From: an uncultured Neomegalonema sp.
Lineage (GTDB): Bacteria > Pseudomonadota > Alphaproteobacteria > Rhodobacterales > Rhodobacteraceae
Direction of reading: 5' to 3'
Assembly (NCBI GenBank): GCA_937990185.1
Contig: CALKBI010000012.1
Span: 1 to 64,000, forward strand
Length of the DNA stretch: 64,000 nt
The position numbers and the translations under genes were made by a program. The notes beneath the pieces were generated by a model, which made no database searches, was not told where the DNA came from, and saw only the letters and a list, made by a program, of their open reading frames with translations. Positions 56,782 to 58,836 of this stretch are shown one piece after another; the stretch's first letter is position 1, and each line of letters starts with the position of its first letter.

Positions 56782-57189
56782 TTAATCCTTTGGCTCGCGG
56801 GCAAAGTCTTCATCACTGACCGGCTCCATCCAGTCGATATGGACACCGTTGAGAGCCTCATGGATGGCGATATGACTCATAGCCGTGGTTGTTGATGCGC
56901 CGTGCCAGTGTTTCTCCCCGGGGGGAATCCAAACCGTGTCCCCTTGGCGCAGAACACGGACCGGCTCTCCCTCGGTCTGAAAGCGCCCTTCTCCCGCAAT
57001 CACATAAAGCGTTTGTCCAAGCGGATGCGTATGCCAGTTAGTGCGTGCTCCGGCCTCAAAGGTCACACGAACCGAGCGCGCTCGTGCCGGTTCCGGGGCG
57101 TCATTAATCGGGTCAGCCCAAACCGTTCCTGTAAAGTAATCACTAGAAGCCATCTTACGGGGCCGTTCTTCGTTCTTATACAAAATCAT
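56782..57189 (-). CDS. Small cupin protein coupled to alkB
   Basis: A 135-residue single cupin from the ATG at 57187-57189; the track extends it upstream into alkB. The metal-binding cupin motifs are complete: GARTNWHTHPLGQTLYVIAGEG (motif 1) and PPGEKHWHGAS (motif 2). This form is usually a quercetinase/carboxymuconolactone-like cupin or an oxalate-type sensor. GAGGAAGTG lies upstream, and the start overlaps the TGA of alkB by four bases, so it is translated with the alkane hydroxylase. Its function is unknown; an ancillary or detoxifying role is inferred. Confidence 0.8.
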   Translation of the reverse strand: MILYKNEERPRKMASSDYFTGTVWADPINDAPEPARARSVRVTFEAGARTNWHTHPLGQTLYVIAGEGRFQTEGEPVRVLRQGDTVWIPPGEKHWHGASTTTAMSHIAIHEALNGVHIDWMEPVSDEDFAREPKD

Positions 57190-58256
57190 ACTGTCACTTC
57201 CTCTGGATAGAACTGTGTTTGCCACGCGGCAAGTCTCGGTTGCATTATTTTGAAGTAGAGTGGCGGAATTAATGCAAGCAAAACCATCCACGGATACCCA
57301 TAAGGAAGCTGTGGAGCCTCGGTTGTCGGATAACTTTGCAACGTTGGGAAGCGCTTACGCGGCTTATAATGATGATCCGAATGCCGCTGTAAATTGATAA
57401 GCAACCAGTTCGACGCCTGATGTCCGCTATTCCAAGAATGGTGCGGTTGGGTGGGCTCATATTTCCCATTATCGCGTCTGCGCCGCATCAACCCGTAATG
57501 CTCAACGTAATCCACAAGCTCAAGCAACAGAACCGCGACAATGGATTGGATGCTCAAAATCATAATGCCCATCCATCCCCCGATAATCGCAGCCAAGCTC
57601 ACAAAAAGGAAAGTCCATCCTGCATAGCGTAGAAAGGCATTATGCCTAGAGAAAAAGCCTGCCTCTCGCCTTTTCAATTGATCCCGCTGGATGTGCCAAG
57701 CTGAAACCACAGTGCCGATCAAAACACGCGGTAAAAACTGATAAATCGTTTCTCCCGCTCGCGCCGTTGCCGGGTCTTCGGGCGTCGCAACATTGATATG
57801 ATGGCCATAGACGTGCTCAAGACACCAATGCCCGTAGAAAGTCGAACACATTAGAACTTCCGACAGGGATCGCTCGAACTTGTTCTGCTGGTGAGCCAAT
57901 TCATGCGCGTAAGTAATACCTATCCCGCCGGAAGAGATACCAACGGCTGTCGCCATCGCCACAATCTCCCACCAAGCGAGGTGGCCAAAGGTCGCGATCC
58001 AAATCAAACCAAAAATCATGGTCAGCTGAACAGGAACCCAAAGCCACGTCAAAAGACGATGCCAGTACAGTTGGCTTACGTCGGTATCAGAAGGAAGCCG
58101 CGCTTCGTTCAGCTTCATTGCGCAATCTAATGCAGGAACAAGGACGAATGCACTGACAGGCGCAAGAAATATCCAAAATCCGCCCAGCCATGCCCCTAAT
58201 GCAGCAAACGGCAAGAATAAAAATGATATTGCAAAAGGTGCAGCGTTCAAAAGCAT
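57186..58256 (-). CDS. alkB: Alkane 1-monooxygenase (AlkB family)
   Basis: A 356-residue membrane di-iron hydroxylase. The histidine boxes of AlkB are all present: HELAHQQNKFER, EHVYGHHINVATPEDPATA and LQRHSDHHYKP, with the helper motif DYVEHYGLMRRR and NSGHQASNWLLIN. Six hydrophobic segments lie around them. It should hydroxylate the terminal carbon of medium-chain alkanes with electrons from rubredoxin. No rubredoxin gene is present nearby. A cupin gene overlaps its end. Confidence 0.9.
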   Translation of the reverse strand: MLLNAAPFAISFLFLPFAALGAWLGGFWIFLAPVSAFVLVPALDCAMKLNEARLPSDTDVSQLYWHRLLTWLWVPVQLTMIFGLIWIATFGHLAWWEIVAMATAVGISSGGIGITYAHELAHQQNKFERSLSEVLMCSTFYGHWCLEHVYGHHINVATPEDPATARAGETIYQFLPRVLIGTVVSAWHIQRDQLKRREAGFFSRHNAFLRYAGWTFLFVSLAAIIGGWMGIMILSIQSIVAVLLLELVDYVEHYGLMRRRRDNGKYEPTQPHHSWNSGHQASNWLLINLQRHSDHHYKPRKRFPTLQSYPTTEAPQLPYGYPWMVLLALIPPLYFKIMQPRLAAWQTQFYPEEVTV

Positions 58257-58410: not shown

Positions 58411-58836
58411 CTATAGCTGGCCTTTCAGAGCTTCAAATCGCTTTCGCATCAAGCTGCCCCGCGGCTTAAACGCATCAATGTCGGCACGGTTCCTGTCAGC
58501 GCTTTCAACTACGATCATACCGATCATGCCCACCGCAAAATGCGGGCGGGATTTGAACATATAGACGCCGGGAACAGAGACAGTCACTCTTGCTTCGGCA
58601 TTCAGCGGCGCTTCCCAAGGCTCCGCACCGGTTGGCACAATGATACTCGCGGCGGCATGACCACCATCCTCAGGTATGAACACAACGGTATCGCCAACTT
58701 TGGCCTGCACAATGGATGGCTCAAAAGCCATACGGGTTCCATCACTGCCTTGGTTCAGCATTCTAACGACATGCTCTGCGGCAAAAACGGGCATGCCTGA
58801 TAGGCAGAGAGCAGCGGCAAGCAACAGCGATTTCAT
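58411..58836 (-). CDS. Pseudoazurin-like protein lacking the copper Cys ligand
   Basis: A 141-residue exported cupredoxin-fold protein with a signal peptide (MKSLLLAAALCLSGMPVFA, cleavage before AEHVVRML). The pattern resembles pseudoazurin: MAFEPSIVQAKVGDTVVFIP, His ligand in EDGGHAAAS, and YMFKSRPHFAVGMIGMIVVE at the ligand loop. In pseudoazurin that loop is K-C-T-P-H-x4-M, but here the Cys is Ser (codon TCC) while the later His and Met are kept. A normal blue copper site cannot form. Electron transfer to denitrification or oxidase partners is therefore doubtful; another metal-binding or structural role is possible. Confidence 0.82.
   Translation of the reverse strand: MKSLLLAAALCLSGMPVFAAEHVVRMLNQGSDGTRMAFEPSIVQAKVGDTVVFIPEDGGHAAASIIVPTGAEPWEAPLNAEARVTVSVPGVYMFKSRPHFAVGMIGMIVVESADRNRADIDAFKPRGSLMRKRFEALKGQL

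Follow-up and report, generated by a model that had tools for sequence, protein, structure and literature searches.

In pseudoazurins, the thiolate of the Cys ligand makes the protein a blue electron carrier, and a type 1 centre is excluded in practice without it. The protein described here shares with the pseudoazurins (TIGR02375) the fold, the His/His/Met ligands, and a signal peptide, but it has Ser for Cys, Ala for Asn, and a shorter loop, and it lacks most of the docking lysines. SufI/FtsP of E. coli is likewise a bacterial periplasmic member of a copper family that gave up copper (PMC2661564), but it has the multicopper oxidase fold and has lost nearly all ligands. Plant ENODLs contain cupredoxin domains without copper-binding residues (PMC10048054), but they are phytocyanins, mostly arabinogalactan protein chimeras. 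Loss of most or all copper ligands, as in SufI and the ENODLs, is not what is found here, as three of the four are kept. In Cys112Asp azurin, an oxygen donor takes the place of the thiolate ligand of a cupredoxin (PMC8915257), but this is a laboratory variant with Asp instead of Ser, in azurin instead of pseudoazurin. In the open-licence literature that was searched, a natural pseudoazurin lacking the Cys was not found to be described.

The window, i.e., the whole stretch of 64,000 nucleotides from an uncultured Neomegalonema sp. that was analysed, carries the following features:

58411 to 58836, minus strand: pseudoazurin homologue with Ser at the Cys position (Ser-type), secreted, 141 residues (reading frame; Pfam, NCBIfam, and PDB comparison; orthologues)
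58780 to 58836, minus strand: putative signal peptide, residues 1 to 19, likely cut between VFA and AEH (-3/-1 rule by eye; alignment with 1adw)
58654 to 58659, minus strand: His60, the early ligand, which is kept, and Ala61, where 98 of 108 Cys-type proteins have Asn (alignment)
58549 to 58551, minus strand: Ser96 codon TCC, replacing the copper-ligand Cys (sequence, homologue alignment)
58525 to 58554, minus strand: ligand loop K95-S96-R-P-H99-F-A-V-G-M104, with His99 and Met104 kept (sequence)
57186 to 58256, minus strand: downstream neighbour, alkane 1-monooxygenase (AlkB) homologue (PDB 8f6t, E 7e-71)
56782 to 57171, minus strand: downstream cupin resembling (R)-mandelonitrile lyase, with linkage kept at each of the four Ser-type loci

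The reading frame (58836 to 58411, minus strand) opens with ATG and encodes a signal-peptide-like start, an AxA-type site, and a cupredoxin domain in its 141 residues. In the alignment with the Paracoccus pseudoazurin chain 1adw, the first residue of that chain falls on residue 20 of the window protein. Pfam Copper-bind (PF00127) matches at 37.4 bits (cut-off 21.2). In the PDB sequence comparison, the top solved relative is the Sinorhizobium pseudoazurin 3tu6 (E 7e-25), followed by 5x31 and 1paz; the solved pseudoazurins of Alcaligenes, Achromobacter, Paracoccus, and Sinorhizobium are 31–41% identical to the window protein. On the pseudoazurin equivalog TIGR02375, with its cut-off of 109.85 bits, the window protein scores 104.7. 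All four Ser-type proteins stay below this cut-off (97.7–108.1 bits), while four canonical relatives reach 148–189 bits. In the genome of the window, a second pseudoazurin was not found; the other Copper-bind match there is a protein encoded beside a multicopper oxidase.

The AlphaFold2 model, built with an alignment of the window and locus proteins, has a mean pLDDT of 94.7 and shows two C-terminal helices as in pseudoazurins. Its nearest solved folds are pseudoazurins (rmsd 1.3–2.3 Å, best matches 1.3–1.8 Å), the apo-pseudoazurin 1pzc among them. Hence, in overall sequence and predicted fold the protein is of the pseudoazurin type. The cupredoxin fold is predicted to be intact, and the change to Ser leaves it unbroken in the model. 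The pseudoazurin apo fold is stable on its own, without copper.

Ser96 follows the residues Y-M-F-K and occupies the position of the thiolate ligand. The ligand set is His60-Ser96-His99-Met104, and the same His-Ser-His-Met set replaces His-Cys-His-Met in all four Ser-type proteins. When these were compared column by column with 108 Cys-type proteins, the columns invariant in the latter were G48, H60, G90, C96, H99, G103, and M104, of which only C96 is altered. Among 21 core columns conserved to at least 85%, 17 are kept and four are changed, namely C96 to S, N61 to A, G111 to E/D, and V37 to A/V.

Asn61 is the neighbour of His60 and is replaced by Ala in all four orthologues. In cupredoxins, the Asn adjoining the first His forms a hydrogen bond to the Cys sulphur and so supports it. 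The ligand-side loop that follows His60 lacks two residues relative to pseudoazurins, and Met84 of the contact face is Val or Leu. The positions of K10, K38, K57, and K77 hold Q/V/S, G/N, E/D, and K, respectively, so that three of four lysines are gone and the lysine-rich docking face for nitrite reductase is absent. Replacement of these lysines weakens the binding of pseudoazurin to nitrite reductase (PMC6274584). Net charge was discarded as a mark of lost docking, as the Ser-type values lie within the Cys-type spread. Because of the loss of Asn61 and the changes in the lysines, Met84, and the loop, the environment of the thiolate is remodelled, and so is the surface that faces the partner. 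The first-pass annotation had named a pseudoazurin homologue with Cys replaced by Ser and with the early His, the late His, and Met retained. PF00127, the match to 3tu6, and the predicted fold bear out the homology, and coordinates and residues proved correct. Its phrase that only the thiolate was lost is too narrow in view of Ala61, the missing K10, K38, and K57, the altered Met84, and the shortened loop.

The ligand columns were read in 114 homologous ORFs from 298 genomes of the family and 385 of the class (about 680). His-Cys-His-Met is present in 108 of these, the Ser set in five rows, which represent four genomes because the window protein is listed twice, and Phe-Ser-Tyr-Met in one. A phylum sample of 399 genomes gave Cys in 22 of 22 homologue ORFs read from new loci. 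Column 96 was masked for the tree, in which the Ser proteins group as a single clade (SH-aLRT 100). Their stem measures about 1.0 change per column, and their root-to-tip lengths are 2.0–2.3 against a median of 1.5; the tree rests on few columns, and its deep forks are unresolved. Relatives were not found in viral contigs, and those in plasmid records, compared by identity, are all below 60% identical. A DNA pattern for K-S-x-P-H-x3-G-M matched ten times in the 385 class genomes. One match is the window; the one other that was opened (L172, genome G475) lies opposite a long glycosyltransferase-like frame.

Within Neomegalonema, the gene is present in four of 14 genomes, with identities to the window protein of 100, 96, 74, and 71%; no match was found in the other ten. 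The loop reads FKSRPHFA[V/L]GM in all four orthologues, and the Ser96 codons are TCC, TCC, TCG, and TCG. For the pair of the window and G011, dN is 0.019 and dS 0.45; for G008 and G009, the values are 0.19 and 1.8. In five of six ortholog pairs, synonymous sites are close to saturation or past it; dN does not exceed 0.21 in any pair. Since dN is low while dS is high or saturated, purifying selection acts on a working protein, which speaks against decay as well as error. The first-pass annotation had left it to an alignment of homologues whether Ser is conserved in a clade, and would have yielded if all close homologues carried Cys. All four orthologues carry Ser, and close homologues with Cys number zero. 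Its view that selection has favoured a function apart from type 1 copper thus holds, with Ser fixed in the clade under purifying selection.

A second change from Cys to Ser was found in another genus of the family (loci L196 to L199; first seen in L103, 1028 to 1498, plus strand). Here, the ligand positions read Phe-Ser-Tyr-Met. As in the window protein, the change is at the same position and is conserved in its own genus, but both His are lost, Asn is kept, and a canonical His-Cys-His-Met paralogue, about 50% identical, stands alongside in three of the four genomes. The protein is present in four of the five genomes of that genus with 79–100% identity, and the motifs K/R-GFNAE and KSMPY[YF]GMGM are unchanged; the fifth genome has the canonical protein only. 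The dN/dS ratio is roughly 0.15–0.2. Because this protein falls outside the Neomegalonema clade in the tree, Cys was most likely replaced by Ser at least twice. The Phe-Ser-Tyr-Met protein cannot make the copper site, yet it passes TIGR02375 (NCBIfam) with 159.5 bits. Hence, the score does not test the site, and the automatic name 'pseudoazurin' can be functionally wrong. The conservation of this clade shows that selection can keep the pseudoazurin fold without copper ligands.

With the thiolate lost and the site remodelled, type 1 copper electron transfer is very unlikely for the window protein, and we set it aside with high confidence. We propose that the Ser-type protein was derived once, in one Neomegalonema subclade, from a blue copper pseudoazurin and took on a new periplasmic job that is under purifying selection and would not involve type 1 copper electron transfer. 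Without the thiolate, the blue site for fast electron transfer should not form. The pocket of His60, His99, and Met104, together with Ser96 or water, would most likely still hold copper, if weakly, in a colourless site of type 2-like or Cu(I) character, and the role would be that of a periplasmic copper buffer, of delivery, or of sensing instead of a redox shuttle. For periplasmic, non-redox copper binding at His60/His99/Met104, we estimate a probability of about 0.45. The narrower idea of a natural cupredoxin whose His2-Met site, with Ser or water for Cys, makes it a dedicated non-redox copper binder is conceivable but falls well short of even odds. If true, such a protein would be the wild counterpart of the engineered thiolate-free cupredoxins.

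Retention of His/His/Met is suggestive of metal, and weakly so, because the chance of keeping the three named ligands by general conservation is about 0.06–0.10; 42 of 92 core columns are invariant in the four Ser-type proteins and equal to the family majority. The roles that the first-pass annotation had put forward, Cu(I) or other metal storage or a structural part, are thus candidates, with this weak statistical support for a metal. We lean slightly towards a residual His2-Met copper site over no metal, since H60, H99, and M104 outlasted a long stem, unlike in the Phe-Ser-Tyr-Met case. Against copper binding count the loss of the second-shell Asn, which fits a relaxed metal geometry, and the second Cys-to-Ser clade, which dropped both His and was yet kept by selection. 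It also counts against it that a known copper-handling gene is not conserved beside the Ser-type gene across the four loci.

A metal-free scaffold is a serious contender, though we would not bet on it. Here, the cupredoxin fold would have been put to new use in the periplasm, as a structural or protein-binding module, and the persistence of His60, His99, and Met104 would reflect packing or a lack of time for change. The independent Phe-Ser-Tyr-Met clade, conserved and mostly accompanied by a His-Cys-His-Met paralogue, is kept by selection and therefore raises this option for the window protein, for which a job without metal is feasible. The model matches apo-pseudoazurin 1pzc, which is a folded protein, and E. 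coli SufI/FtsP (PMC2661564) and the plant ENODLs (PMC10048054) provide precedents. The three remaining ligands, however, are unchanged over the long stem and in four species, which is not so in the Phe-Ser-Tyr-Met proteins.

As an anionic donor, Ser is inferior to Asp. This weighs against the idea that the protein is still an electron carrier, with copper in an altered ligation (a type 2 or type zero-like site), which we regard as unlikely. Copper does bind to engineered Cys112Asp azurin variants, which have been studied for its geometry and for the reorganisation on electron transfer (PMC8915257); three ligands are also kept here. The equivalents of K10, K38, and K57 are gone, though, Met84 is Val or Leu, and NirK above the family cut-off was not found in the genome of the window, in G008, or in G009. 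It is present in G011 (L156, G011:C31:1258-2226), the nearest relative, in which a canonical pseudoazurin was not found. The electron donor of this copper nitrite reductase may hence be something else, perhaps a cytochrome c.

The neighbours invite a different reading, an accessory protein of the adjacent AlkB alkane hydroxylase or of the cupin, which we consider very unlikely. The genes are co-directional in the window and in G011, with corA divergent and upstream in the window. The corA and cupin genes are linked to the Ser-type gene in each of the four genomes; in G009, further genes are inserted. AlkB gave no match in G008 or G009 (drafts, 85 and 87% complete). In G008, a remnant of the AlkB C-terminus (L065, 10218 to 10281; 21 residues, 15 identical) sits between the Ser-type gene and the cupin, which points to a former AlkB at this locus; G008 thus appears to have lost alkB. 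The Ser-type gene, however, is kept in both G008 and G009, while four genomes of the genus have AlkB and eight have the cupin without it. As AlkB and the cupin each occur in genomes that lack the Ser-type gene, which in turn is found in the absence of AlkB, neither is a required partner, and an obligate partner is not visible among the neighbours.

Decay of the gene and an error of sequencing or assembly are scarcely credible. One could cite for them the draft metagenome-assembled genomes and the ten genomes of the genus without a match, but both were ruled out by the intact frame, the many synonymous changes against few non-synonymous ones, the occurrence of Ser under two codons in four separate genomes, and the shared synteny with corA and the cupin.

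The interest of the Ser-type protein lies mainly in the natural pair that it forms with the Phe-Ser-Tyr-Met protein, as two pseudoazurins that have lost the thiolate. In two separate bacterial lineages Cys was replaced by Ser and the protein kept under selection; one retains the other ligands, and one does not. The natural series Cys/His/His/Met, Ser/His/His/Met, and Ser/Phe/Tyr/Met lends itself to asking what purpose the cupredoxin fold serves after the loss of copper electron transfer.

If the signal peptide is cut as predicted, residues 20 to 22 (58771 to 58779, minus strand) give the mature N-terminus Ala-Glu-His. This candidate ATCUN motif for Cu(II)/Ni(II) may offer an additional Cu(II) site, but the Ser clade does not stand out by it, as 42 of the 108 Cys-type proteins share the His. 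Outside the class, a pseudoazurin homologue (L187, 1402 to 1833, minus strand) has the loop V-C-P-P-H-R-M-M-N-M and Trp after the first His; its ligands are canonical, and their surroundings are unusual.
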